From NCBI RefSeq assembly GCF_020510445.1, contig NZ_JAHBAG010000001.1, positions 4,812,501 through 4,876,500 on the forward strand: a DNA stretch of 64,000 bases. The letters run 5' to 3'. A model generated the notes under the pieces. That model saw nothing but the letters and a program-made list of their open reading frames with translations. It was not told the origin of the DNA and searched no databases. Below, piece after piece: positions 4,453 through 22,055 of the stretch. This DNA comes from Hydrogenophaga taeniospiralis. Its GTDB lineage: Bacteria; Pseudomonadota; Gammaproteobacteria; Burkholderiales; Burkholderiaceae_C. Made by a program: the position numbers and the translations under genes. Numbering within the stretch: position 1 is the stretch's first letter; the number at the start of each line of letters is the position of its first letter.

Positions 4453-5190
4453 TCATGCCCAGACCAGCCGGTGGTGGTCGAAGCCCGCCTCCAGCGTCGG
4501 TTTGACCACCTGGAAATACGGCGAAACGTCGAAATCGCGCGGCGTGTACAGGCTGTGGTGGCGCACGTGCAGGATCTGGCGCACACAGTCCTGGCAGTGC
4601 GGATCGTTCAGTTGGGCCACCTCGATGATGGGCAGGATGGGGTAGTTGACCGACGCGAAGGCCTGCGCGATCAACGTCGAACAGATGGCACGCGTGGGGT
4701 CGCCACTGCCCAGCGCGAGCAGGTGGCGGCGCCAGCGTGTGGGCACGGGTGGCGTGGGAAACAGGTAACGCGCCAGATCGACGATGTTCTTCAGGTCGTA
4801 GTGGTGGCCCAGGCGCTGCAGGGTGAACCGGCACACGGCCTGCGCTTCGTCGGCGCGCAGGCTGGCCGGCCGGCAAATGCGGCAGTGCCGCCCGGCGAAC
4901 GCCGTGAGTGGCACCGCACGCACACCGGCGTTGATGTCGGCCTCGACCACGTTGAGCGCGTCGCTCCCGCCACCGGCGATCGGCCCCACGTAGAGCGCCG
5001 CGTGCGACCAGGTGGACTGGGTCAGGTACTTGATGGCCGTGCTCACGCGCGAGTTGCCCTCCACCAGGATCACGTCGCCCGGGCGCACACAGGCGGCCAG
5101 CAACACCATGTCGGTGGGAAAACCGATGCTCGCGGTGTGCCCCGGCGCGCCCAGGTAGCGCGCCAGCGCACTGCCTATCCATTGCCTCAT
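4453..5190 (-). CDS. YiiX/YebB-like permuted NlpC/P60 cysteine hydrolase
   Basis: The 245-residue protein has the circularly permuted papain-like arrangement of the YiiX/YebB group. A beta strand ending in GDVILVEG is followed by STWSHAALYVGP with the presumed catalytic His63. The presumed nucleophile Cys170 is in AICSTLIAQAF near the C-terminus. Family members are thought to cleave amide or ester bonds in lipids or cell-wall material; the substrate here is unknown. No clear signal peptide is visible. It lies 76 bases downstream of the P-type ATPase start on the same strand and is divergent from the TVP38 fusion gene, with 72 bases between starts. Confidence 0.75.
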   Translation of the reverse strand: MRQWIGSALARYLGAPGHTASIGFPTDMVLLAACVRPGDVILVEGNSRVSTAIKYLTQSTWSHAALYVGPIAGGGSDALNVVEADINAGVRAVPLTAFAGRHCRICRPASLRADEAQAVCRFTLQRLGHHYDLKNIVDLARYLFPTPPVPTRWRRHLLALGSGDPTRAICSTLIAQAFASVNYPILPIIEVAQLNDPHCQDCVRQILHVRHHSLYTPRDFDVSPYFQVVKPTLEAGFDHHRLVWA

Positions 5191-5262
5191 GCCTTGTCCC
5201 TTCCGGTGTAAGAATGGCGAACCCTGCGCGACTCACCAGGAAACCCACCCGAGAACCGTGCC

Positions 5263-7425
5263 GTGAACTTCCGCAAACTCCTGCTGCTGGTGGCCGTGCT
5301 GATGGCCATCGTCGCTTTTTTCACCTTCGATCTCAACCGGTATTTCAGCCTCGACTTCCTGCAGCAGAGCCAGGCCCGTTTCGCCGAGCTGCGGGCGCAG
5401 CAGCCCCTGGCGCTCGCGCTGGGGTATTTCGCGGTCTACGTCGCCGTCACCGCGCTCTCGCTGCCCGGCGCCACCATCGTCACGCTCGCGGGTGGCGCCA
5501 TCTTCGGCCTGGGTTGGGGTCTGCTCATCGTGTCGTTCGCCTCCAGCATCGGCGCCACGCTGGCGTTTCTGACCTCGCGTTTCCTGTTGCGCGACAGCGT
5601 GCAGACGCGCTTTGGCCAGCGCCTGGCCGAGGTGGACAAAGGCATCCAGAAGGAAGGTGCGTTCTACCTGTTCACGCTGCGGCTGATTCCGGTGGTGCCG
5701 TTTTTCCTGATCAACCTGCTGATGGGCCTGACGAAGATGAAGGCCTGGACGTTTTACTGGGTCAGCCAGCTCGGCATGCTGGCCGGCACGGCGGTGTACG
5801 TGAACGCGGGCACGCAACTGGGCCAGCTGACGTCGCTGCAAGGCATCCTGAGCCCGGCGCTGCTGGGCTCCTTTGTGCTACTCGGCCTGTTCCCACTGAT
5901 CGCGCGGCGCGTCGTGGAGGTGGTGCAAAAGCGCAAGGTGTACGCACGCTGGGCCAGCGTTCGGCCGGCGAAGTTTGACCGCAACCTGATCGTGATCGGC
6001 GCGGGCGCGGGCGGCCTGGTGTCGGCCTACATCGCCGCCGCCGTGAAGGCCAAGGTGACGCTGATCGAGGCCCACAAGATGGGCGGCGACTGCCTGAACT
6101 ACGGCTGCGTGCCGAGCAAGGCGCTGATCAAAAGCGCCACACTGGCGCACCAGATGCGCCACGCATCGAACTACGGCCTGAGCGATGCAAGCCCGGCTTT
6201 CAGCTTCAGGGCCGTGATGCAGCGCATCCACGACGTGATCAAAGCCATCGAGCCGCACGACAGCGTGGAGCGCTACACCGGTCTGGGCGTGGAGGTGCTG
6301 CAGGGTTACGCCAGGTTGCTGAACCCGTGGACGGTGGAGATCGCGCAGAGCAGCGGTGGCACACAGACCCTCTCCGCGCGCAGCATCGTGATCGCGGCCG
6401 GTGCCCGCCCCTTTGTGCCGCCGCTGCCCGGTCTGGACGAGGTGGGCTATGTCACCAGCGACACGCTGTGGGACGCCTTCGCGAAGCTCGACGAGGTTCC
6501 GCAACGCCTGGTGGTGCTGGGTGGTGGCCCCATCGGCTGCGAACTCGCCCAAGCCTTCGGCCGGCTGGGCGCGCAGGTGACGCAGGTGGAGATGGCGCCG
6601 CGCATCATGATCCGCGAAGACGAGGAGGTGAGCGCGCTCGCGAAAGCCGCGCTGGAAGCGGACGGCGTGGCGGTGCTCACCGGACACAAGGCGCTGCGCT
6701 GCGAGGCCGTGGGCGGCGAGAAGATGCTGATCGTCGAGCACGAAGGCACGGAAAAACGCATCCCCTTCGACCAGCTCATCTGTGCCGTGGGCCGCGTGGC
6801 GCGGCTGCAGGGCTACGGGCTGGAAGAGCTGGGCATCCCGACGAACAAGACCATCGAGACCAACGAGTACCTGCAGACCCTCTACCCCAACATCTACGCC
6901 GCCGGCGACGTGGCCGGTCCCTACCAGTTCACCCACGTGGCCGCACACCAGGCCTGGTACGCGGCGGTCAACGCCCTCTTTGGCGACTTCAAGAAGTTCA
7001 AGGCCGACTATTCGGTGATCCCCTGGGCCACCTTCATCGCCCCCGAGGTGGCGCGCGTGGGCCTGAACGAACAGGAAGCGAAGGAAAAGAACATCCCCTA
7101 CGAGGTCACGAAGTACGGCATTGACGACCTGGACCGCGCGATCGCCGACAGCGAGGCCCACGGCTTCGTGAAGGTGCTCACCGTGCCGGGCAAGGACACC
7201 ATCCTCGGCGTCACCCTCGTCGGCACGCACGCCGGCGATCTGCTGGCCGAATACGTGCTGGCCATGAAACACGGCCTGGGTCTGAACAAGATCCTGGGCA
7301 CCATCCACACCTACCCCACACTGGCCGAGGCCAACAAGTACGCCGCGGGCGAATGGAAGCGCGCGCACGCGCCGCAGCGGCTGCTGGCCTGGGTGGCGAA
7401 GTACCACGCCTGGAAGCGCGGATGA
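5263..7425 (+). CDS. TVP38/TMEM64 membrane domain fused to a mercuric-reductase-like FAD oxidoreductase
   Basis: This is a 720-residue fusion. Residues 1 to about 235 form a VTT (TVP38/TMEM64, DedA-like) membrane domain with the typical PGATIVTLAGGAIFG and LRLIPVVPFFLINLL segments. From about 238 a pyridine-nucleotide disulfide oxidoreductase begins. It has FAD motif VIGAGAGG, redox pair C277/C282 in GGDCLNYGCVPSKAL, NAD(P) motif VVLGGGPIGCELA, a second FAD motif IYAAGDVAGP, and a C-terminal HTYPTLAE that supplies the usual active-site His-Glu pair. Start is GTG at 5263 with only a weak ribosome site. The substrate is unknown; no mercury genes are nearby. It leads a rightward set with the DUF547 and DUF3047 genes, suggesting a membrane-linked thiol or lipid redox function. 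Confidence 0.9.
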   Translation: MNFRKLLLLVAVLMAIVAFFTFDLNRYFSLDFLQQSQARFAELRAQQPLALALGYFAVYVAVTALSLPGATIVTLAGGAIFGLGWGLLIVSFASSIGATLAFLTSRFLLRDSVQTRFGQRLAEVDKGIQKEGAFYLFTLRLIPVVPFFLINLLMGLTKMKAWTFYWVSQLGMLAGTAVYVNAGTQLGQLTSLQGILSPALLGSFVLLGLFPLIARRVVEVVQKRKVYARWASVRPAKFDRNLIVIGAGAGGLVSAYIAAAVKAKVTLIEAHKMGGDCLNYGCVPSKALIKSATLAHQMRHASNYGLSDASPAFSFRAVMQRIHDVIKAIEPHDSVERYTGLGVEVLQGYARLLNPWTVEIAQSSGGTQTLSARSIVIAAGARPFVPPLPGLDEVGYVTSDTLWDAFAKLDEVPQRLVVLGGGPIGCELAQAFGRLGAQVTQVEMAPRIMIREDEEVSALAKAALEADGVAVLTGHKALRCEAVGGEKMLIVEHEGTEKRIPFDQLICAVGRVARLQGYGLEELGIPTNKTIETNEYLQTLYPNIYAAGDVAGPYQFTHVAAHQAWYAAVNALFGDFKKFKADYSVIPWATFIAPEVARVGLNEQEAKEKNIPYEVTKYGIDDLDRAIADSEAHGFVKVLTVPGKDTILGVTLVGTHAGDLLAEYVLAMKHGLGLNKILGTIHTYPTLAEANKYAAGEWKRAHAPQRLLAWVAKYHAWKRG

Positions 7426-7468
7426 CGATGCCGGTGGAACCCACCGGCCGTGAAAGAATCGACACACC

Positions 7469-8281
7469 ATGATCCACCGCCGCCAGACCCTGGCCCTGCT
7501 CGCCGCCAGCGCGTTTTTTCCGCTCGCCGCGCGGGCCCAGCCCACGTTCGACCACGGCTACGCCGCCTGGGACGCGCTGCTGAAAAAACACGTGCGCTGG
7601 CTGGCCGACGGCAAGCAGTCGCGCGTCGGCTACGCCGGGTTTCTGGCCGACCGCGCCGCGCTGGCAACCGTGCTCGAGGCCTTGAGCGCCGTGCCCCAGG
7701 CCACGTTCGACGGCTGGAGCCGGCCGCAGCAGATGGCCTTTCTGATCAACGCCTACAACGCCTTCACGGTGGAACTCATCCTCACGAAATACCCGGATCT
7801 GAAGTCCATCAAGGACCTGGGCTCGTTCATCCAGGCGCCCTGGAAAAAGAAGTTCTTCCGGCTGCTCGGCCAGGAGCGCCACCTCGACTGGATCGAACAC
7901 GAGCAGCTGCGTCCGCGCTACCAGGAGCCGCGCGTGCACGCCGCGGTGAACTGCGCCAGCATCGGCTGCCCGGCGCTGCGCGACGAGGCCTTCACCGCCG
8001 CGAAGCTCGAGGCCCAGCTCGAAGACGGCATGCGCCGCTTCCTGGGCGACCGCACGCGCAACCGCGTGGTCGGGGGCCGGCTGGAAGTCAGCAGCATCTT
8101 CAAGTGGTTCCGCGAAGACTTCGAGGCCGGCCACCAGGGGTTCACGCGGGTGGAAGACGTGTTTGCCCGCTACGCCGAACAGCTGAGCGATCAACCCGCC
8201 GAGCAGGCCCGCCTGCGCGCGCGCAGCCTGCCCGTGAGCCACCTGGACTACGACTGGTCGCTCAACGACGCCGGCCGCTGA
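7469..8281 (+). CDS. DUF547 domain protein, exported
   Basis: The 270-residue product starts with a signal peptide (arginines, then LALLAASAFFPLAARA, cleavage near residue 24), so it should act outside the cytoplasm. The DUF547 core includes AFLINAYNAFTVELIL, the ASIGCPALRDEAF segment with its conserved Cys, and the late FKWFREDF segment. The family has no established biochemical role; its conserved Cys/His pattern suggests a papain-like fold, which is inference. It lies 43 bases after the TVP38-reductase fusion and 2 bases before the DUF3047 gene, so the three are probably one operon. Confidence 0.82.
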   Translation: MIHRRQTLALLAASAFFPLAARAQPTFDHGYAAWDALLKKHVRWLADGKQSRVGYAGFLADRAALATVLEALSAVPQATFDGWSRPQQMAFLINAYNAFTVELILTKYPDLKSIKDLGSFIQAPWKKKFFRLLGQERHLDWIEHEQLRPRYQEPRVHAAVNCASIGCPALRDEAFTAAKLEAQLEDGMRRFLGDRTRNRVVGGRLEVSSIFKWFREDFEAGHQGFTRVEDVFARYAEQLSDQPAEQARLRARSLPVSHLDYDWSLNDAGR

Positions 8282-8283
8282 CC

Positions 8284-9084
8284 ATGCGCGCCACCCACTG
8301 CCGCCGCACCACCCTGGCCGGCACCCTGCTCGCGCTGGCGCTGGTGGGCAGCGCCCCGGCTCAGACCCAGACCGGCGCCGCCTTGCCCCCGCTGCTGCAG
8401 GACGACGGCGCGCTGCACCCGGCTTGGCGCTTTGTCGGCTTTCCCCAGCAACACACCGAACTGCCGCCGACCCGCTTCGAGGCCGGCACGGTGGACGGCG
8501 AACGCGCGCTCAAGGTGTCCACCGCGTCGTCCTACGGTACGCTGGTGCACGGCTGGAGCGGCCCTGTACCTGCCGCGCGGCTGCAATGGCGCTGGCGGCT
8601 GGACCAGCCGCTCGTGGGCGCCCGGGTGCCGGTCGACATCCTCAGCAAGGCCGGCGACGACGCCGCGCTCAAGGTCTGCGTGATGTTCGACCACCCGATG
8701 GAACGCGTGCCATTCTGGGAACGCACCGTGCTGCGCCTGGCGCGCGGCGTGAGCGGCGAGGCGCTGCCTGCGGCCACGCTGTGCTATCTGTGGGACAGCT
8801 CGCACCCGGCGCTCACCGAAGGCGCCAACCCCTACAGCCGCCGCGTGCGCTTCATCAGCCTGCAAGGCCGCGGTGCGCCGTTGGCGCGCTGGGTGAACGA
8901 ATCTCGCGACGTGGCGCAAGATTTCGCCCGGCTCTTCGCCGACGAGCTGCCGCAGGGCGCCCAGACACCGCGCGAAGCCCTGCCCCGCATCTCCACCGTG
9001 CTGATCGGCGCCGACAGCGACAACACCGCGAGCCACAGCACCGGCTGGGTGGCCGGGCTGCGCTGGGCAGACCAAGCACCCTGA
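8284..9084 (+). CDS. DUF3047 domain protein, exported
   Basis: The 266-residue product has a signal peptide (about residues 1-27, ending around SAPAQ) and a beta-rich body. Features typical of DUF3047 are the WRWRLDQPLVGARV strand, KVCVMFDHP, the CYLWDSS segment, and ISTVLIGADSDNT near the end. The family is uncharacterised and may bind a ligand in the periplasm; this is inferred from the fold-like pattern and signal peptide only. The ATG at 8284 follows the DUF547 stop by two bases, implying translational coupling. An alternative frame through this region is a shadow. Confidence 0.8.
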   Translation: MRATHCRRTTLAGTLLALALVGSAPAQTQTGAALPPLLQDDGALHPAWRFVGFPQQHTELPPTRFEAGTVDGERALKVSTASSYGTLVHGWSGPVPAARLQWRWRLDQPLVGARVPVDILSKAGDDAALKVCVMFDHPMERVPFWERTVLRLARGVSGEALPAATLCYLWDSSHPALTEGANPYSRRVRFISLQGRGAPLARWVNESRDVAQDFARLFADELPQGAQTPREALPRISTVLIGADSDNTASHSTGWVAGLRWADQAP

Positions 9085-14076: not shown

Positions 14077-14490
14077 CTACTTCGCTCGCCTGGGCTTTGC
14101 TTTTGCGGCGGTATTGAGGGCGATGGCGGCACGGATGAGCGCTTTGAACTCAGCCGCGTCAACCACCTCGCCCTCACGAATGTCCATCGCGCGCCTGGTG
14201 TTGCCGTCAAGGCTCGAATTGAACAGTCTGGCCGGGTCGTCCAGCGAAGCCCCCTTGGCGAAGGTCAGTTTCACGACCGACTTGTAGGACTCGCCGGTGC
14301 AGAGGATCCCGTCGTGCGACCACACAGGCGTGCCCATCCACTTCCACTCCTCGACGACCTCCGGGTCGGCCTCCTGGATGAGCTTGCGCATCCGGCCCAA
14401 GGTCTGCCCGCGCCAGTCCGCGAGATCGGCGATGCGTTGGTCAATCAGCGCAGAGGCCAACAGGCCCTCGGTCGAATCGGGTTTTTTCAT
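14077..14490 (-). CDS. DUF1801 domain protein
   Basis: The 137-residue protein has the YdhG-like DUF1801 fold. Diagnostic features are RMRKLIQEADPEVVEEWKW followed by GTPVWSHDGILCTG and VKLTFAKGASLDDPARLFNSS. The C-terminus is lysine-rich (AKAKPRRAK). The function of the family is unknown; iron-sulfur or nucleic-acid roles have been guessed for related YjbR/CyaY-like folds. It lies 31 bases upstream of the MOSC gene and may head the leftward operon. Confidence 0.85.
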   Translation of the reverse strand: MKKPDSTEGLLASALIDQRIADLADWRGQTLGRMRKLIQEADPEVVEEWKWMGTPVWSHDGILCTGESYKSVVKLTFAKGASLDDPARLFNSSLDGNTRRAMDIREGEVVDAAEFKALIRAAIALNTAAKAKPRRAK

Positions 14491-14620
14491 GGGTGCCTCC
14501 TGAAGCTTCTGGACTCTAAAGCACTATGAAAATCTGTTGTTGCATGGTGTTTTAGAAGGCCGAAGGCGCGCCCGGCACCATCATCCAGGAAGCGGCGGTT
14601 AACAGCACTCAGGACCCCCT

Positions 14621-14911
14621 TCAAACCCGAATGACCTCGACTTCGTGTGGCCTCTCGGTGGAAAAGCTTCGGGCGAACTCGATGACCTCGGCCTCTGATT
14701 CGCCAGGATGCGAGGTGGTGGTGATGAATGTGGCCTCCGAGCCGTCGGCTCCCATGCACATCCAGTCCAGCGCATCCTCCCATTTTTCGGCGTCGACACC
14801 CAGGGCGCAGAACAGCTCAATCTGGCTCTCGATCAGTTCCCGCAACAACGGATCATCCCGGCTCGCGACGTAGCCGGAGGTAGAAACCAGAACGATCTTC
14901 CCGCTGTGCAT
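14621..14911 (-). CDS. Small conserved hypothetical protein
   Basis: This 96-residue acidic protein begins with a strand, GKIVLVSTSGYV. It continues with a helical region (LLRELIESQIELFCALG) and a WEDALDWMCMG segment, then a strand, ATFITTTSHPGES. It looks like a small soluble alpha/beta domain with several Cys and Trp residues. I do not recognise it. It lies 27 bases after the selD start on the same strand, so it could be the last gene of the senB-selD transcript, but nothing in the sequence links it to selenium. Confidence 0.6.
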   Translation of the reverse strand: MHSGKIVLVSTSGYVASRDDPLLRELIESQIELFCALGVDAEKWEDALDWMCMGADGSEATFITTTSHPGESEAEVIEFARSFSTERPHEVEVIRV

Positions 14912-14938
14912 GGCAACCGCCTGAGCCCTAGCCCCGTC

Positions 14939-16018
14939 TCAAACCACCTGCAGCCGCACCCCGCCAGCCACAGGCGCCACGATCTCGCCCACTTCGGCGG
15001 CGGCGGCGAAACCGTGGCGCTCGAAGATGGCCAGCACCTCGGCCACCGCGTCGGGCGCGCAGGCCACGAGCAGGCCGCCGCTGGTCTGGGGGTCGCTCAG
15101 CAGGGCCTGGTCCACCGGTTGCAGGTGGTCGCCCAGGCGCACTTCGTGGCCATAGGCGGCCCAGTTGCGGCCGGAGGCGCCGGTCACCATGCCCTGGGCG
15201 GCCAGGGCGCGCACGCCTTCGATCAGCGGCACGCGGTCCATGCTGAGGCGCACGGTGGTGTGGGCACCGCGCGCCATCTCCAGGGTGTGGCCGGCCAGGC
15301 CAAAGCCGGTGATGTCGGTGAGCGCGTGCACACCGTCGAGCGCCGCCAGGTCGGGGCCGGGGGTGTTGAGCTGGGTGGTGGTGGCGATCATGCGGGCGTA
15401 GCCCTCGGCGCTGAGCGCGTCCTTCTTGAGCGCGGCCGAGAGCACGCCCACGCCGATGGGTTTGCCCAGGATCAGGCGGTCGCCCACTTGTGCGTCGGCG
15501 TTGCGCTTGACGCGCCGGGGGTGCACCAGCCCCAGGGCCACCAGGCCGTAGATGGGCTCAACGGAGTCGATGGTGTGGCCGCCCGCGATGGGGATGCCGG
15601 CGGCGCGGCAGACGCTCTGGCCACCTTCGAGGATTCGGCCGATGGTCCCGGTGCTGAGCACGCCGATGGGCATGCCCACCAGGGCCAGCGCCATGATGGG
15701 CGTGCCGCCCATGGCGTAGACGTCGCTGATGGCGTTGGTGGCGGCGATGCGGCCGAAGTCGAACGGGTCGTCGACGATGGGCATGAAGAAGTCGGTGGTG
15801 GCGATCAGGGCCTGTTCGTCGTTGAGCCGGTACACAGCGGCGTCGTCGGCGGTTTCGATGCCCACCAGCAACTCGGGCGGCATGGGCATGGCAGCCGTGC
15901 CTTTGAGGATGTCGCTGAGCACGCCGGGGGCGATCTTGCAGCCGCAGCCACCACCGTGCGAGAGGCTGGTGAGGCGGGGTTCTTTGGTGGCGGCGGGTTG
16001 GGGCATGGGTGCGTTCAT
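14939..16018 (-). CDS. selD: Selenophosphate synthase (SelD/SenC)
   Basis: This 359-residue enzyme makes selenophosphate from selenide and ATP. The N-terminal glycine-rich segment HGGGCGCKIAPG holds the catalytic Cys25 (cysteine form, no UGA codon) and Lys28. Further signatures are DDAAVYRLND, TTDFFMPIVDDPFDFG, the AATNAISDVYAMGG helix, GGHTIDSVEPIYGLVALG and LTDITGFGLAGH. It lies 50 bases downstream of senB on the same strand. In known selenoneine clusters the selD homologue beside senA and senB is called SenC and supplies selenophosphate to SenB. Whether it also serves selenocysteine or selenouridine synthesis cannot be told here. Confidence 0.95.
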   Translation of the reverse strand: MNAPMPQPAATKEPRLTSLSHGGGCGCKIAPGVLSDILKGTAAMPMPPELLVGIETADDAAVYRLNDEQALIATTDFFMPIVDDPFDFGRIAATNAISDVYAMGGTPIMALALVGMPIGVLSTGTIGRILEGGQSVCRAAGIPIAGGHTIDSVEPIYGLVALGLVHPRRVKRNADAQVGDRLILGKPIGVGVLSAALKKDALSAEGYARMIATTTQLNTPGPDLAALDGVHALTDITGFGLAGHTLEMARGAHTTVRLSMDRVPLIEGVRALAAQGMVTGASGRNWAAYGHEVRLGDHLQPVDQALLSDPQTSGGLLVACAPDAVAEVLAIFERHGFAAAAEVGEIVAPVAGGVRLQVV

Positions 16019-16068
16019 CGGCGGGTTCGGGTTCGGTGCGGCGGAAGGTTGGGATGCGGCGGCGCGGC

Positions 16069-17076
16069 TCAGGGAGGTTGCCGCCCGGTGGGGTGTCGCA
16101 GTTCGCCCAGCAGGCTCAGCAAGGCGGCCCGCTCGGCGGCCGGTTCAAACCGGGTGGCTCTGATCGCGCATTGTGCTTGCAGCGCGGCGAGCCAGGCGCC
16201 GCCGCTGGCGAGGTCCTGGCGGCCCTGGCGCAGCAGCGCGGCCAACGCGGCGGCGTCGCCCGCGGAGAAGTAGCCGCCGTAGTCGGCACCGAGCATGCCC
16301 ACGTTGCCCGCGATGCGCGAGGCCAGCACGGGCGTGCCACTGAGCGCGGCTTCCATGATGACGTGGGCGCCCCCTTCCATGTGGCTGGGGTGCACCAGCA
16401 GGTGCGCGCGCTGGATGCGCTCTCGCGTGCGGGCGTGTGGCTGGCCGCCGAGCCAGCGGTAGTGCGGGCAGTCGCGCATGCACTGGCGCGCGGCCTCGCC
16501 CAGCGCGGTGTCGAGCGCATCGCCGATGTGGTCGATCTGGATGCCTTCGTCGGGCCGCAACAGGCGCGCCGCGGCCCACAGCGTCTGGGGCGACTTCTCC
16601 TCGCGCAGGTGCCCCACCATGAGCACGCGCAGCCACGCCGTGGTCTTGGCCAGGGTCCGACGCGGGGTGCTGGACTGGAAGACCACCCGGGCCTTGCCGC
16701 GCAGGGCCTCGGGCAAGGCCAGCGGGCCCTGGTCCTGCAGCACGATCAGCCGCTGCGCCAGGGCCAGCGAGCGCTGCGCGCTGGCGTCGGTGGCGATGTC
16801 GCGGTACAGGTCGGTGCCGGTGAGCGCGAGCACCAGCGGCCGCCCGGGGTGCGCCTGCTGCGCCCACGCGGCCACGGAGGCGGCCGAACGCCGCGCGTGC
16901 AGGGCGAGCAGGATGTCGGTGCCGTCGGCGGCGGCGTCGCCATCGGGCCACCGCTGGGCCAGGCGAACCCGATAATGGCCCGACAGCATCTGCGCCCAGC
17001 GGCGCGCGGTCTGCCAGTTGCCGTTGTTGGCATCGGCCAGCGCGGGAGTGACGATGCAGAGAGCGGGTTTTTTCAT
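16069..17076 (-). CDS. senB: Selenosugar synthase SenB
   Basis: This 335-residue GT4-like glycosyltransferase-fold protein begins with IVTPALADANNGNWQTARRW, the conserved start of SenB. GTDLYRD at about 86-92 and HPSHMEGGAHVIMEA in the C-terminal half (donor-site loop) are also typical. SenB is known to use selenophosphate and a UDP-sugar to form a 1-seleno-sugar, the first step in which selenium becomes bound to carbon in selenoneine synthesis. It precedes selD on the same strand and is head-to-head with senA, with 12 bases between the two start codons. A trosR-like TIGR04348 annotation would be the same family. Assignment relies on sequence pattern and context together. Confidence 0.9.
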   Translation of the reverse strand: MKKPALCIVTPALADANNGNWQTARRWAQMLSGHYRVRLAQRWPDGDAAADGTDILLALHARRSAASVAAWAQQAHPGRPLVLALTGTDLYRDIATDASAQRSLALAQRLIVLQDQGPLALPEALRGKARVVFQSSTPRRTLAKTTAWLRVLMVGHLREEKSPQTLWAAARLLRPDEGIQIDHIGDALDTALGEAARQCMRDCPHYRWLGGQPHARTRERIQRAHLLVHPSHMEGGAHVIMEAALSGTPVLASRIAGNVGMLGADYGGYFSAGDAAALAALLRQGRQDLASGGAWLAALQAQCAIRATRFEPAAERAALLSLLGELRHPTGRQPP

Positions 17077-17088
17077 GGGGGTGCGTCG
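17077..17088. promoter_or_regulatory. 12-base spacer between divergent senB and senA starts
   Basis: The start codons of senB (17074-17076, minus strand) and senA (17089-17091, plus strand) are separated by 12 bases. Both proteins begin with conserved residues almost at once, so neither start can move far inward. Each promoter and ribosome site must therefore lie inside the other gene's coding sequence. No classical -35/-10 pair is obvious. Confidence 0.6.
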
Positions 17089-18366
17089 ATGGCGGTGATT
17101 GTGTCCGAAGCCGAACAGGCCCGTTGCGCCGGCAAGGCCGCGCTGGCGCAGGCGCTGGTGGGTGCGCGCGAGCGCACGCTGCGCCTGTTCGCCGCCTACC
17201 AGGCCGCGCTGGGGCCGGCCCTGCGCGTGCCCTGCACGCCCGAGCTGAACCCGCCGCTGTGGGAGCTGGGCCACATCGGCTGGTTTGCCGACTGGTGGAT
17301 CGCGCGCAACCCGCAGCGCGGGCAAGGCACGCAGGCCGACCCGCTGGCGCCGCGCGCGCCAGCGCGGCAGGCCACGCACGGCGTGAACGCAGACGCGCTG
17401 TACAACTCCAGCACCGTGCCACACGACCGGCGCTGGCAGCTGGACCTGCCGGACGCCGAGGCGGTGCGCACCGACCTGGCCCACGGCCTGGCCGACACGC
17501 TGGCGCTGCTGGCGCAGACGCCCGACGACGACGCTGGCCTGTATTTCTTTCGCCTCGCGCTGTTCCACGAAGACATGCACGCCGAGGCGGCGGTCTACAT
17601 GGCGCAGACGCTGGGGTTGGACGCTCTGGACGCCACTGTGTCCACCGCCGCGCCGCCCCCAGAGCAAACCCTGCCACAAACCCTGTCCGTCGCCGCCACT
17701 CCCTGGACCCTGGGCCGCAGCGGCCCGGGCTTCGCTTTTGATAATGAGCTGGGCCCGCACGCCGTATCGGTGGCGGCTTTCGAGATCGACGCGCGCGCCG
17801 TCAGCTGGGCGCGGTTTCTGCCGTTCGTGGCGGCGGGCGGTTATGCGCAGCGGCGTTTCTGGAGCGAGGCGGGCTGGGCCTGGCTGCAGGCCGGCGCAAC
17901 GGTGGAGCCCGGGCGCAGCGCTTCGGGCGCAGAGCCTTGGCGCTACCCGCGCCATCTGCGCCCGTCAACCGATGGCGGCTGGGAGCGGCAACGGGGCGGG
18001 CATTGGCAGCCGCTGGACATGGCCGCGCCGGCCTGCCACCTCACGGCGTTCGAGGCCCAGGCCTGGTGTGCCTGGGCCGGGCGGCGCCTGCCCAGCGAAG
18101 CCGAATGGGAAGTGGCCGCGGGCCACCCGGGTTTCCAGTGGGGCGAGGTGTGGGAATGGACCGCCAGCGCCTTCGCGCCCTTCCCCGGTTTTCAGCCGCA
18201 CCCCTATGTGGACTACTCCCGGCCCTGGTTCGACGGCCGCCCGGTGCTCAAAGGCGCGAGCCACGCCACCGCACCGCGCATGCGCCACCCCCAGTACCGC
18301 AACTTCTTCACGCCCGAGCGCAACGACATCTTTGCCGGTTTTCGCAGCGTGGTCGGTCAGCGTTGA
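17089..18366 (+). CDS. senA: Selenoneine synthase SenA (EgtB-like non-heme iron enzyme)
   Basis: This 425-residue protein has an N-terminal DinB-like helical domain and a C-terminal formylglycine-generating-enzyme fold, as in EgtB. The three presumed iron ligands are His62 in ELGHIGWF, and His160 and His164 in FHEDMHAEA. The C-terminal part has RRLPSEAEWEVA, GEVWEWTASAF and RMRHPQYRNFFTPERNDIFAGFRSV. SenA is known to join the SenB selenosugar to hercynine with oxygen, giving the selenoxide that becomes selenoneine. The FF-TPER-DIF-GFR ending and adjacency to senB separate it from the true EgtB at 19547. It converges with egtD across a repeat element. Confidence 0.92.
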   Translation: MAVIVSEAEQARCAGKAALAQALVGARERTLRLFAAYQAALGPALRVPCTPELNPPLWELGHIGWFADWWIARNPQRGQGTQADPLAPRAPARQATHGVNADALYNSSTVPHDRRWQLDLPDAEAVRTDLAHGLADTLALLAQTPDDDAGLYFFRLALFHEDMHAEAAVYMAQTLGLDALDATVSTAAPPPEQTLPQTLSVAATPWTLGRSGPGFAFDNELGPHAVSVAAFEIDARAVSWARFLPFVAAGGYAQRRFWSEAGWAWLQAGATVEPGRSASGAEPWRYPRHLRPSTDGGWERQRGGHWQPLDMAAPACHLTAFEAQAWCAWAGRRLPSEAEWEVAAGHPGFQWGEVWEWTASAFAPFPGFQPHPYVDYSRPWFDGRPVLKGASHATAPRMRHPQYRNFFTPERNDIFAGFRSVVGQR

Positions 18367-18382
18367 CGGGTTCCCACCAGCA

Positions 18383-18460
18383 CACACCGCGGAACCGGCT
18401 CCGCCGGGCCGCTGGTGTGGCCCCCTTGAGGGGGTCGCGGGCGCAGCCCGCGGCAGGGGT
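18383..18460 (-). repeat. Post-stop hairpin repeat, copy a
   Basis: This copy of an eight-member repeat family lies 2 bases past the egtD stop, read on the minus strand. It carries the CCCCC-tcaa-GGGGG stem and the longer GC-rich stem around CCGGC/GCCGG. It sits between convergent senA and egtD and may terminate either transcript. Confidence 0.8.
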
Positions 18461-18462
18461 GG

Positions 18463-19464
18463 TCAAGCAGCTCCCCAGAACACACTGAACCAGTCGTGCG
18501 GGTCGCTCCAGTGGCGCACGGCGCCAAAGCCCGCGTCGTGCAGCAGGGCTTCGAAATCGGTGGGTTCCCACTTGTAGGAGTTTTCGGTGTGCAGGCGCTC
18601 GCCGGCCGCGAAATGGCGTTCACCACCGGGCCAGCGCACGGTCTGCGCGCGGGTGGGCTCCAGGTGCATCTCGATGCGCGAGGCCTCGGCGTTGAAGAAC
18701 GCCACGTGCCGCCAGGCCTGGGGGGCGAAGTCGGCGCCCAGCAGGCGGTTCACGTTGAGCAGCAGGTTGCGGTTGAAGGCGGCGGTCACGCCCAGAGCAT
18801 CGTCGTAGGCGGGTTCGAGCACGGCGCGTGGCTTCACGCGGTCCACGCCGATGAGCAGGCCCCCGCCCGCGCCACCGGCGGCGCACACCGCGTGCGCCTG
18901 GCACAGCAGGGCCAGGGCCTCGGTGGGCGAGAAGTTGCCGATGCTGGAGCCGGGGTAGAACACGGCGCGCGGCAGCCGCGCGGCGCCGCTCGTGGCCAGC
19001 CAGTCCGCCGCCTGCGGGCCGAGCGCGAGCCGGGCCGAGAAGTCCATGCCCAGGCCCAGCATGGGCAGCGCCGGGTGGCGCTGCTGCAGGGCGTCGAGCG
19101 CGGCGCGCAGGTAGTCCACCGAGATGTCCACCGCCACGTAGGCGGCGGGCCGCAGCGCGGGAAACAGGCGCGCGGCCTTGGCGCAGCTGCCCGCGCCCAG
19201 GTCGATCAGCACCGCGCCGGCGGGCAGGGCCTGGGCCATGTCGGGCGCGTGCTGCGCGAAGATGGCGGCCTCGGTGCGCGTGGGGTAGTACTCGGCCAGT
19301 TCGGTGATGGCGTCGAACAGGCGCGAGCCCAGCGCGTCGTACAAAAACTTGGGGGCGATGCGCGGCGGCGTGAGCGCCAGCCCGCCCGCCAGTTCGGCGC
19401 GCACGGCGTCGTCGTCGGGGCGGTGCAGCTGGACAAAGCTGGGCAGACAGGGTGTGGACGGCAT
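18463..19464 (-). CDS. egtD: L-histidine N-alpha-methyltransferase EgtD
   Basis: This 333-residue SAM-dependent enzyme converts histidine to hercynine (trimethylhistidine). Recognisable features are PPRIAPKFLYDALGSRLFDAI and the ELAEYYPTRTEAAI stretch. The SAM loop is VLIDLGAGSCAKAARLF at about 89-105, and later come FYPGSSIGNFSP, a LLIGVD-type strand and RIEMHL with GERLHTENSYKW. Hercynine is the shared acceptor for EgtB (sulfur) and SenA (selenium), so this gene serves both branches. It lies 82 bases downstream of egtB on the same strand. The ATG at 19464 matches the usual N-terminus; an upstream extension is Arg/Ala-rich shadow. Confidence 0.95.
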   Translation of the reverse strand: MPSTPCLPSFVQLHRPDDDAVRAELAGGLALTPPRIAPKFLYDALGSRLFDAITELAEYYPTRTEAAIFAQHAPDMAQALPAGAVLIDLGAGSCAKAARLFPALRPAAYVAVDISVDYLRAALDALQQRHPALPMLGLGMDFSARLALGPQAADWLATSGAARLPRAVFYPGSSIGNFSPTEALALLCQAHAVCAAGGAGGGLLIGVDRVKPRAVLEPAYDDALGVTAAFNRNLLLNVNRLLGADFAPQAWRHVAFFNAEASRIEMHLEPTRAQTVRWPGGERHFAAGERLHTENSYKWEPTDFEALLHDAGFGAVRHWSDPHDWFSVFWGAA

Positions 19465-19546
19465 GGCAGGCCCTGGGGGTTGCAGGCCCGTGGGCCCGGT
19501 GTTGAACACATCCCGGGCCGCGCTGGGGCGGGCCGGGGCGACGGGG

Positions 19547-20896
19547 TCAAAGACTGCGCGCCAGGCGCAGGCCGCTGAACTGCCAGCGGGCGCTGGCGGG
19601 AAAGAAGTTGCGGTAGCTCGCGCGCAGGTGCGACAGCGGCGTGGCGCAGGAGCCGCCACGCAGCACCAGCTGGTTCACCATGAACTTGCCGTTGTACTCG
19701 CCCACCGCGCCTCCGGCCGGCTGGTAGCCCGGGTAGGCGCTGTAGCTGCTGTTGGTCCATTCCCACACGTCGCCATATATCTGCAGCAGCGCGCCGGGCG
19801 CGGCGGCCGCGCGCGCGGGCATGGGGTGCAGAGCGCCGCTGTCCTGGCAGTTGCCCTGCACCGGCAGGGCCGCGGCGCTGGCTTCCCACTCGGCCTCGCT
19901 GGGCAGGCGCGCGCCGGCCCATTCGGCACGGCTGGCCGAGGCCCAGCGCGCGAAGGCGTCGGCCTCGTAGTAGCTGATGTGCGTCACCGGGGTGTGCGGG
20001 TCCAGCGGCATGTCGCCGTGCAGGGTGAACACCGTGGGCAGCGCGGCGCTGTCGGCCGGCAGTGTCCAGTAGAGCGGCGCGGCCAGGCCTTCGGCGCGCA
20101 GCCAGTCCCAGCCGGCGGCGAGCCACCAGCGCGGGTCGGTGTAGCCGCCGTCCCGCACGAAGGCCAGCCACTCGCCGTGGGTCACCGGCCGGTTCATCAG
20201 CGCATGGGGTTGCAGCCACTGGGGGTGGCGCGGGCTTTCGTTGTCGAACGCAAAGCCCGGCCCGGCGTGGCCGATCTCGACCAGCCCCCCGGGGCGCTCC
20301 ACCCACTGCGCCGGCACGCTGGCCACGCTGCTGAGCGGCCAGGCGCGCCGGTACACCGGGTGCAGCGGGTTGATGGAGAGCAGGTGCTTGATGTCGGTGA
20401 GCAGCAGTTCCTGGTGCTGCTGCTCGTGCTGCACACCCAGCTCGATCAGGGCCAGGGCCTCCGGTTGGCTGGTGTGGCGCAGCAGCCGGGCCACCCGCTG
20501 GTCCACCTCGGCGCGCCAGCGCAGCACCTCGGCAAAGTCGGGGCGGGTCAGCGGGCCGCGCTGGGGCCGCGAAAAGGGTTCGCCCACGCCGTTGTAGTAG
20601 CTGTTGTAGAGCGCGCGAAAGGCCGGGTGGAAGGGCTGGAAGCAGGGCTCGAAGCGCTCCAGCACGAAGGTCTCGAAAAACCAGGTCACGTGCGCCAGGT
20701 GCCATTTGGCGGGGCTGGCGTCGGGCATGGACTGGGCCTGGCAGTCTTCGGGCGAGAGTGGCGCCACCAGCGCCAGGCTGCGCTCGCGCACCGCCTGGTA
20801 ACGCCGGGCCAGGGCGGCGCGCTCCAGGTCGAGGCCGGGCGCGGGGCGCGCTGCGTGTGCGGCGGGTGCCTTGGCGGCGGCCGGTGGGGTGGGCAT
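19547..20896 (-). CDS. egtB: Ergothioneine biosynthesis sulfoxide synthase EgtB
   Basis: The 449-residue enzyme oxidatively couples hercynine to a thiol donor. The N-terminal DinB-like domain has the iron ligands H69 in WHLAHVTWFFETFVL and H157/H161 in HEQQHQELLLTDIKH. The NSYYNGVG segment and the C-terminal FGE-fold (RLPSEAEWE, GDVWEWTNSSYSAYPGYQP, RGGSCATP, SYRNFFPASARWQFSGLRLA) complete it. The type resembles proteobacterial EgtB. No EgtC glutaminase or EgtE C-S lyase gene is present in the window, so later steps must be encoded elsewhere or the donor may be free cysteine. It shares a strand with egtD, with an 82-base gap. Confidence 0.94.
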   Translation of the reverse strand: MPTPPAAAKAPAAHAARPAPGLDLERAALARRYQAVRERSLALVAPLSPEDCQAQSMPDASPAKWHLAHVTWFFETFVLERFEPCFQPFHPAFRALYNSYYNGVGEPFSRPQRGPLTRPDFAEVLRWRAEVDQRVARLLRHTSQPEALALIELGVQHEQQHQELLLTDIKHLLSINPLHPVYRRAWPLSSVASVPAQWVERPGGLVEIGHAGPGFAFDNESPRHPQWLQPHALMNRPVTHGEWLAFVRDGGYTDPRWWLAAGWDWLRAEGLAAPLYWTLPADSAALPTVFTLHGDMPLDPHTPVTHISYYEADAFARWASASRAEWAGARLPSEAEWEASAAALPVQGNCQDSGALHPMPARAAAAPGALLQIYGDVWEWTNSSYSAYPGYQPAGGAVGEYNGKFMVNQLVLRGGSCATPLSHLRASYRNFFPASARWQFSGLRLARSL

Positions 20897-20906
20897 GGCG
20901 GTCCTT

Positions 20907-22055
20907 TCAGCGCGCGGGCAGCAGGCGCAGCAACTGGCCGTTGCGTTCGTCGGTCAGCAGGTAGATGAAGCCGTCCGGGCCCTGGCGCACGTCGCGCACG
21001 CGCTGGCCCAGCGTGGGCAGCAGTTTTTCCTCGCGGCGCACGCGGGTGCCGTCGAGCTCCAGCCGGGCCAGGTAGCGGAACTTGAGCGAACCCACCAGCA
21101 GGTTGCCGCGCCAGGCCTTGCCGTAACGATCGCTGTGCACGAAGGCCATGCCGGCCGGAGCGATGGACGGCACCCAGTAGTGCAGCGGCTGCTCCAGCCC
21201 GGGTTTGGCGGTGAGGCCTTCGCCGATGGGGCCGCCGCCGTAGTTTTCGCCGTAGGTGATGAGGGGCCAGCCGTAGTTCTTGCCGGCCTCGGGGCGGTTG
21301 ATCTCGTCGCCGCCCTGCGGGCCGTGTTCACCGGTCCACAGGCGCCCGTCGGCCGCGAGCGCGGCGCCCTGCAGATTGCGGTGGCCCAGGCTCCAGATCT
21401 CGGGCAGCGCGCCCGCGCGGCCCACGAAGGGGTTGTCGGGCGGCACGCTGCCGTCGGGCCGGATGCGCACCACCTTGCCGAGGTGGTTGTCCAGGGTCTG
21501 TGCGTCGGCCATGCGGCTGAAGCGGTCGCCCAGCGTGAGGAACAGGTTACCGTCGCGGGCCTGCACGATGCGGCAGCCGAAATGCGCGCGGCTGCTGACC
21601 TTGGGTTTCTGGCTGAACAGGACCTTCACGTCTTCCAGCCGCGTGGCGTCCTTGGACAGGCGGGCCGAGGCCAGCGCGGTGGAGTTGCCGCCGCCGCTGG
21701 CGGCGGGCTCGGCGTAACAGAAATAGAGGGTGCGGTTACGCGCGAAGTCGCGGTCGGTGGTCACGTCGAGCAGACCGCCCTGCCCGATCACGTCCACCTG
21801 GGGCACACCGGCCAAGGGCTCGCCGAGCGTGCCATCGGGCGCCACCACGCGCATGCGCCCGGGCCGCTCGGTCACCAGCATGCGGCCCTCGCCGATGAAG
21901 GCCAGGCCCCAGGGGTTCTGCAGACCGCGCGCCACCACCTCGGTGGTGACGCCACCCGCCTGGGCCTGGGCCTGGGCCTGGGCGGCTGGCGCGGCGGCGG
22001 CGAGCGCGGCAAGGGCTGTGGTGAGCGAAAGGCTGAACAGACGGGGGATTGTCAT
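20907..22055 (-). CDS. PQQ-dependent sugar dehydrogenase (YliI/Asd type), exported
   Basis: This 382-residue periplasmic beta-propeller has a signal peptide with a run of Ala-Gln repeats before the mature start GGVTTEVVARGLQNPWGLAF. Typical features are LVTERPGRMRVV, GGLLDVTTDRDF, AHFGCRIV with LTLGDRFSRM, EIWSLGHRNLQGAA, TGEHGPQGGDEIN and KNYGWPLITYGENY. Family members oxidise aldose sugars with pyrroloquinoline quinone. Start 22055 has GGGAG seven bases upstream. It ends 11 bases from the egtB start on the same strand, so read-through into egtB is possible. No PQQ synthesis genes are nearby. Confidence 0.9.
   Translation of the reverse strand: MTIPRLFSLSLTTALAALAAAAPAAQAQAQAQAGGVTTEVVARGLQNPWGLAFIGEGRMLVTERPGRMRVVAPDGTLGEPLAGVPQVDVIGQGGLLDVTTDRDFARNRTLYFCYAEPAASGGGNSTALASARLSKDATRLEDVKVLFSQKPKVSSRAHFGCRIVQARDGNLFLTLGDRFSRMADAQTLDNHLGKVVRIRPDGSVPPDNPFVGRAGALPEIWSLGHRNLQGAALAADGRLWTGEHGPQGGDEINRPEAGKNYGWPLITYGENYGGGPIGEGLTAKPGLEQPLHYWVPSIAPAGMAFVHSDRYGKAWRGNLLVGSLKFRYLARLELDGTRVRREEKLLPTLGQRVRDVRQGPDGFIYLLTDERNGQLLRLLPAR

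Follow-up and report, generated by a model that had tools for sequence, protein, structure and literature searches.

In a Hydrogenophaga genome of 5.28 Mb in 3 contigs (assembly GCF_020510445.1) we analysed a stretch of 64,000 nucleotides, here called the window (contig NZ_JAHBAG010000001.1, positions 4,812,501 to 4,876,500), which carries the genes of two pathways that share the betaine hercynine, i.e. those for the related antioxidants selenoneine and ergothioneine. As a preliminary description of this DNA had stated, selD (senC), senB, senA, egtD and egtB are contiguous; all five genes are open and intact at 14939-20896 (Table 1). They are arranged in three blocks, egtB-egtD and senB-selD on the minus strand and senA on the plus strand, so that senA is divergent from senB and convergent with egtD. 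A single sen-egt operon would have all genes co-directional, which is not the case here, as senA runs opposite to the other four. The same description had called the locus a compact unit. The adjacency holds, but the joint expression that the term implies is not supported, since the genes form three blocks on opposite strands. Because the start codons of senA and senB are only 12 bp apart, each of the two promoters must sit in or near the other gene. Comparison with the H. taeniospiralis locus L101, whose copies of the five genes contain no internal stops, gave dN/dS values of 0.20 for SelD, 0.20 for SenB, 0.33 for SenA, 0.26 for EgtD and 0.22 for EgtB. All five genes are under purifying selection, and none is decayed.

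Table 1. Genes and intergenic segments of the sen-egt locus, with positions in the window
Feature	Position	Strand	Evidence
selD/senC, stand-alone selenide water dikinase (selenophosphate synthetase), Cys form	14939-16018	-	TIGR00476, NF002098
senB, selenosugar synthase (Se-glycosyltransferase)	16069-17076	-	TIGR04348, structures 8jjq/8fbx, key residues
senB/senA divergent gap, 12 bp between start codons	17077-17088		sequence
senA, selenoneine synthase (non-haem iron selenoxide synthase)	17089-18366	+	NF041186, structures 8k5i/8ryz, tree, residues
senA/egtD gap, 96 bp between convergent 3' ends	18367-18462		coordinates
egtD, L-histidine N-alpha-methyltransferase, hercynine maker	18463-19464	-	TIGR03438, PF10017
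egtB-egtD spacer, 82 bp; site of the transporter cassette in relatives	19465-19546		coordinates
egtB, hercynine sulfoxide synthase, Chloracidobacterium (cysteine-using) class	19547-20896	-	TIGR03440, structures 6qki/6o6l, NSYY, tree

Family identity was judged by the score with a curated NCBIfam model relative to the model's own cut-off, given here in bits as score/cut-off. All five proteins exceed the curated cut-off, which bears out every gene name proposed earlier, and the Pfam assignments agree with those of NCBIfam. SelD reaches 429/125 with TIGR00476 and 547/299 with NF002098. Its N-terminal motif GGCGCK is encoded with the codons GGC TGC GGC TGC; because the motif codons read TGC, it is the Cys form and not the Sec form. 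SenB reaches 438/300 with TIGR04348, and its nearest solved structures are 8jjq/8fbx (about 399 bits). Its residues N20, T23, K161 and E234 (of EGGAHV) align with N20, T23, K158 and E231 of Variovorax paradoxus SenB, in which K158 is catalytic and EGGAHV and N20/T23 are described as key residues (PMC10891094, excerpted text). EgtD scores 354/291 with TIGR03438 and 331 bits with PF10017, and it is the only TIGR03438 match genome-wide at E 1e-30. The hercynine source common to both branches that had been proposed is thus supported: as the genome has a single EgtD match, the hercynine used by SenA and that used by EgtB must come from the same pool.

Two sets of loci were used for comparison. A scan of named genomes gave at least 567 SenB-encoding stretches, and the 80 best loci among these were used (the named loci); a genus set comprised 67 Hydrogenophaga genomes, 44 of them of good quality. 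SenA and EgtB share the Pfam families PF03781 and DinB_2 as well as HExxH, which is present in all SenA and EgtB sequences compared from the named and genus loci, and on these grounds the protein encoded at 17089 might be taken for a second EgtB. However, this protein scores 518/420 with the SenA model NF041186 and only 231/360, below the cut-off, with the EgtB model; conversely, the 19547 protein scores 546/360 with the EgtB model TIGR03440 and stays below the cut-off of the SenA model (365/420). The structures nearest to the former are those of selenoneine synthase (8k5i/8ryz, 392 bits), and the structures nearest to the latter are those of Chloracidobacterium EgtB (6qki/6o6l, 469 bits), with MthEgtB (4x8b) at 136 bits. 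The window genome has one EgtB over the cut-off, and SenA is the only other match to the EgtB model. We calculated a tree of 95 rows with four reference proteins, after dropping SenA matches of up to 340 residues and EgtB matches of up to 380 residues; the position of the long MthEgtB and OvsA branches in it is uncertain. A branch (96/67) has the 57 SenA rows, including the biochemically proven V. paradoxus SenA and the 17089 protein, on one side, and the window EgtB falls into a set of 36 (100/100) together with Chloracidobacterium EgtB and 34 others. Phylogeny, which had been set beforehand as the test of the SenA assignment, thus groups the 17089 protein with V. paradoxus SenA and not with EgtB, in agreement with the model cut-offs.

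The active-site residues give the same picture. The iron ligands listed in the preliminary description, H62, H160 and H164 of SenA and H69, H157 and H161 of EgtB, are all present and aligned with the histidines of the solved SenA (8k5i) and EgtB chains. SenA Y373 lies at the place of MthEgtB Tyr377, and EgtB Y100-Y101 (NSYY) at the place of CthEgtB Tyr93-Tyr94; the numbering offset to the published positions was set by the iron ligands, which we take to be H51 in MthEgtB and H62 in CthEgtB. With the same length limits as for the tree, the pattern P-[YF]-x-x-Y-[ST] occurs among the named loci in 52/55 SenA and 0/12 EgtB sequences, and NSYY in 12/12 EgtB and 0/55 SenA sequences. The genus loci have the former in 36/36 SenA and the latter in 22/22 EgtB, with no crosswise match. 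When the surroundings of the first iron ligand are searched with a strict pattern, 32/55 named SenA and 36/36 genus-locus SenA sequences match. Considering also that the 17089 gene stands start-to-start with senB, a second EgtB is extremely improbable, and at the sequence level this candidate is ruled out by the cut-offs, the tree and the tyrosine signature, which differs from that of EgtB. The roles of MthEgtB Tyr377 and of the CthEgtB Tyr93-Tyr94 pair are described in PMC10903977 (excerpted text), according to which CthEgtB prefers cysteine. From its class, the window EgtB is predicted to use cysteine rather than gamma-Glu-Cys. Because it has the NSYY signature of the cysteine-preferring Chloracidobacterium enzyme, EgtA and EgtC are not expected, and the missing egtC needs no explanation.

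In V. paradoxus, the route from selenophosphate (SelD) via a selenosugar (SenB) to selenoneine (SenA plus hercynine) is established (PMC9814287; PMC10702425, excerpted text). By analogy with the characterised homologues, EgtD would trimethylate histidine to give hercynine, SelD would convert selenide into selenophosphate, and SenB would place the selenium onto a UDP-sugar. SenA, with O2 and iron, would then combine the selenosugar and hercynine into a selenoxide, which breaks down to selenoneine. Alongside this route, EgtB as a cysteine-using sulfoxide synthase would join cysteine and hercynine, and a C-S lyase would finish ergothioneine. Both pathways and all five families are already known, and the locus is well identified. 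It is very probable that it makes two chalcogen derivatives, one with selenium and one with sulfur, of the single betaine hercynine. SenA and EgtB would compete for this substrate, and the SelD-SenB branch would make the split depend on selenide. That the supply of selenium (or sulfur) sets which product is formed is plausible and a good hypothesis.

As for the last step of the sulfur branch, the preliminary description had found no egtE in the window, and the genome-wide search is in line with this: the best match to TIGR04343 has 64.6 bits relative to a cut-off of 400, in a search run without a positive control. Likewise, EgtE had no match in 67/67 genus genomes at E 1e-40, again in a search without a positive control genome. 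The three best matches in the window genome, at C1:2513217, 2525120 and 3844507, are IscS/NifS-type cysteine desulfurases and were rejected as EgtE candidates.

Several points weigh against the formation of both derivatives and the competition for hercynine. As no C-S lyase was found, EgtB could end at hercynylcysteine sulfoxide. The three-block layout allows separate control of SenA and EgtB, while competition assumes that they are made jointly. A consensus scan of 14400-21300 gave no sigma-70-like promoter, and the four terminator-like sites in the same region are at chance level, with none inside 18367-18462, so that neither scan gave anything above chance. Moreover, besides SenA and EgtB the genome encodes a third PF03781 (FGE-sulfatase) protein, at C1:1895606-1896448, within an open frame of 1095 aa. 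If only the selenium branch were productive in vivo, EgtB would be a conserved neighbour whose sulfoxide stays uncleaved or serves another purpose. The lack of EgtE matches throughout the genus and the desulfurase nature of the best own matches fit this, as does the fact that EgtD is found near SenB more often (50/80 named loci, within 6 kb) than EgtB (12/80, within 9 kb). On the other hand, the egtB gene is intact, purifying selection acts on it (dN/dS 0.22) and 30/34 good-quality senB genomes have it; the EgtE searches were run without a positive control genome. In addition, for yeast with a single fungal gene, C-S cleavage without a dedicated EgtE/Egt2, by inherent activity or abiotically, has been suggested (PMC11993508, excerpted text). 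We therefore regard a selenium-only locus as improbable.

More weight has to be given to separate control of the sen and egt blocks, for example by selenium or oxidative stress; real competition would then be slight, and the genes would be adjacent only because both branches require EgtD. The division into three blocks on opposite strands speaks for such control, and so do the conserved divergent spacing of senA and senB, the two egtB orientations across the genus, and the egtB-egtD pairs that stand away from senB, or occur without senB, in 15/67 genomes. However, with a single EgtD match for both branches, the two have hercynine in common however they are regulated, and no regulator or promoter was identified. 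Altogether, separate control comes not far short of an even chance. The preferred reading is still that both derivatives are made from one hercynine pool.

The arrangement of the genes varies considerably among related loci. In the 80 named loci, the distance from SenB is at most 2.5 kb for SenA in 56, at most 6 kb for EgtD in 50 and at most 9 kb for EgtB in 12. Of the 58 named loci with both genes, 54 have senA and senB divergent, the start codons being an estimated 2-110 bp apart when their positions are extrapolated from alignment to the window proteins; this spacing is thus a conserved trait. Among the best 80 named loci, L017 and L030 alone show egtB, egtD and senA in immediate succession beside senB. 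In the genus set, SenB is over the cut-off in 43/67 genomes, EgtB in 44/67, EgtD in 53/67 and the TIGR04553 binding protein, a member of the cassette described below, in 42/67. Of the 43 senB genomes, 31 encode EgtD no more than 8 kb away from SenB, and in 23 EgtB is no more than 12 kb away from SenB. The adjacency of sen and egt genes is therefore not unusual but common in the genus, and it is the tight packing that goes with the absence of the cassette. The compact form is found in 5/43 senB genomes, namely G000 (the window genome), G022, G051, G061 and G066. Because it recurs in this way it is not due to chance, and it is an uncommon form of the locus. SenB occurs in 34/44 good-quality genomes, with EgtD in 34/34 and EgtB in 30/34 of these. 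The co-occurrence of SenB and EgtB is weak, i.e. EgtB is found in 33/43 genomes with and 11/24 without SenB (p 0.016), and in 30/34 versus 7/10 of the 44 good-quality genomes (p 0.32). Hydrogenophaga is not named among the literature matches listed for ergothioneine and selenoneine.

Other layouts were also seen. In seven named loci (L039, L042, L048, L053, L074, L080 and L090) EgtD and SenB adjoin, with SelD in 6/7 (none in the DNA of L080 examined), and no SenA/EgtB-like gene was found in the DNA of these loci even at E 0.01, that of L048 being only 4.9 kb long. Either SenA is encoded elsewhere in these genomes, or another enzyme joins selenosugar and hercynine. In L060, senA, egtB and egtD are contiguous (5143-8508), and an open reading frame between them and senB resembles by eye pyridine-nucleotide-disulfide oxidoreductases; the EgtB of this locus clusters with that of Chloracidobacterium and not with the Hydrogenophaga EgtBs. 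Four senB genomes (G003, G005, G008 and G032) have a separate egtB-egtD pair elsewhere with a lower-scoring EgtD (299-308 bits), and their sen locus is without egtD and has cassette genes beside senA.

The cassette consists of two PhnE-type permeases, a PhnC-like ATPase and the TIGR04553 binding protein, as read from L028 (2735-7069) and L031 (5966-9392). The NCBIfam name of TIGR04553 is 'putative selenate ABC transporter substrate-binding protein', which is a prediction. All 18 non-compact genomes with EgtB near SenB have cassette genes and a TIGR04553 gene between egtB and egtD. In 6/18 (L117, L118, L122, L124, L128 and L137) the egtB orientation and the dehydrogenase flank are as in the window, and in 12/18 egtB is reversed. 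As matches overlapping a better match were dropped from the gene maps, one or two cassette genes are hidden in several loci, where only one member of the overlapping pair of ATPase and binding protein is shown; in the five same-orientation loci where the map shows no ATPase, an ATPase-sized gap is left. None of the cassette genes was matched in the five compact loci. TIGR04553 is over the cut-off nowhere in the five compact genomes (57/250 bits in the window genome; G061 is 87% complete), and one cassette permease used as query gave no match in the window genome, in a search without a positive control. The TIGR04553 binding protein is thus found in 0/5 compact versus 34/38 other senB genomes (Fisher p 1.3e-4). 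The four other senB genomes without it over the cut-off are G033, G025 (67% complete), G063 (80%) and G027 (99%); G033 carries a TIGR04553 fragment at a contig edge (L136), and G027 seems to be truly without it. TIGR04553 co-occurs with SenB, being present in 34/43 genomes with and 8/24 without SenB (p 4.5e-4), or 29/34 versus 3/10 when only good-quality genomes are counted (p 0.0017). At least three of the four cassette genes were seen in 41/80 named loci, well beyond Hydrogenophaga. Another gene, for a YHS_seleno_dom protein (NF041384, 114/70 bits; L028:2735-3397), lies between egtB and the transporter genes.

Loss of the cassette is favoured over its ancestral absence because cassette genes stand in other lineages of the genus and in loci outside Hydrogenophaga. 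For a tree of EgtD, SenB and SelD, 2/49 loci with fewer than two of the three genes were dropped. In the EgtB part of the 95-row tree, two of the compact loci, L111 and L139, are joined with four loci that carry the cassette (98/93), and the window, L101 and L107 stand elsewhere. When all five compact loci are constrained to one clade, the fit worsens by 37 log units for EgtD+SenB+SelD (approximately unbiased (AU) test, p 0.045) and by 14 for EgtB (AU p 0.041). It is likely, with marginal support, that the cassette was lost more than once, at least two events being the better reading. What tells against repeated loss is that both AU values are marginal and that the group was defined post hoc. 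Furthermore, L107 has no settled place in the EgtD+SenB+SelD tree. Since the EgtD+SenB+SelD tree needs only 3 changes and the EgtB tree only 2, and the starred branches force only 1, a single event is possible.

According to excerpts of reviews of 2022 and 2026 (PMC9312934, PMC13188914), a high-affinity transporter specific for selenium has yet to be identified in prokaryotes, and TIGR04553 was not found by name in the literature searched. One might speculate that the sen-egt locus is a chalcogen-balance island, in which the TIGR04553 cassette would be a dedicated high-affinity selenium importer feeding SelD, SenB and SenA, and EgtB a sulfur fallback on the same hercynine. Lineages like that of the window would then have lost this importer, probably on two or more occasions, with the result that the ratio of selenoneine to ergothioneine would follow incidental selenium entry. 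We consider this scenario as a whole unlikely, if somewhat less so than a locus with the selenium branch alone.

Selenoneine is not the only probable destination of selenium in the window genome, which also encodes SelB (456/242) and MnmH (353/220). A second SelD is encoded at C1:3921809 (L006), far from the sen genes, and is fused to an Ndh-like domain, a label given by reading the sequence. There are thus likely three outlets for selenium and two selenophosphate synthetases. A sen-linked SelD that serves selenoproteins alone was considered as an alternative; because of the Ndh-fused SelD the sen-linked enzyme is not the sole supplier of selenophosphate. In the named loci, a stand-alone SelD is found near senB in 43/80 and a low-identity SelD in 22/80; the low-identity SelD open reading frames of L078, L087 and L095 (762-793 aa) begin like the L006 fusion. 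SenC seems to exist in two forms, stand-alone and Ndh-fusion-like, both of which the window genome has.

With the sen cluster of V. paradoxus DSM 30034 (senA-senB-senC; PMC9814287, PMC10702425, PMC10891094) the window shares the SenA, SenB and SelD/SenC families, the SenB key residues and the iron-ligand histidines of SenA. It appears to differ in that egtD and egtB adjoin and senA is divergent, V. paradoxus having been compared at the level of its proteins. The EgtB of Chloracidobacterium thermophilum (6qki/6o6l) has the active-centre tyrosines and the three iron-ligand histidines in common with the window EgtB, whereas the ergothioneine pathway differs in that the window egtB lies beside sen genes and no EgtE homologue was found. 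The cassette-bearing Hydrogenophaga loci (such as L028/L117 and L029/L128) have the same flank of PQQ-type dehydrogenase and egtB and the same order and orientation of egtD, senA, senB and selD, but unlike the window they carry TIGR04553-type ABC transporter genes and a YHS-domain gene on the opposite strand between egtB and egtD. In the H. taeniospiralis locus (L017; L101 from G066) the order and orientation of the five genes are identical, with 89-94% protein identity, the only differences noted being those of sequence and spacer lengths.

The sen-egt locus of the window is clean and intact, and H. taeniospiralis provides a very close relative of it. It is important to note that the genus holds a set of natural genotypes: selenium and sulfur branches with or without the putative importer, a selenium branch without egtB, and egtB-egtD without senB. 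These Hydrogenophaga genotypes would allow tests of whether the supply of selenium and the sharing of hercynine determine which antioxidant is made, and of whether the TIGR04553 cassette is a bacterial selenium importer.

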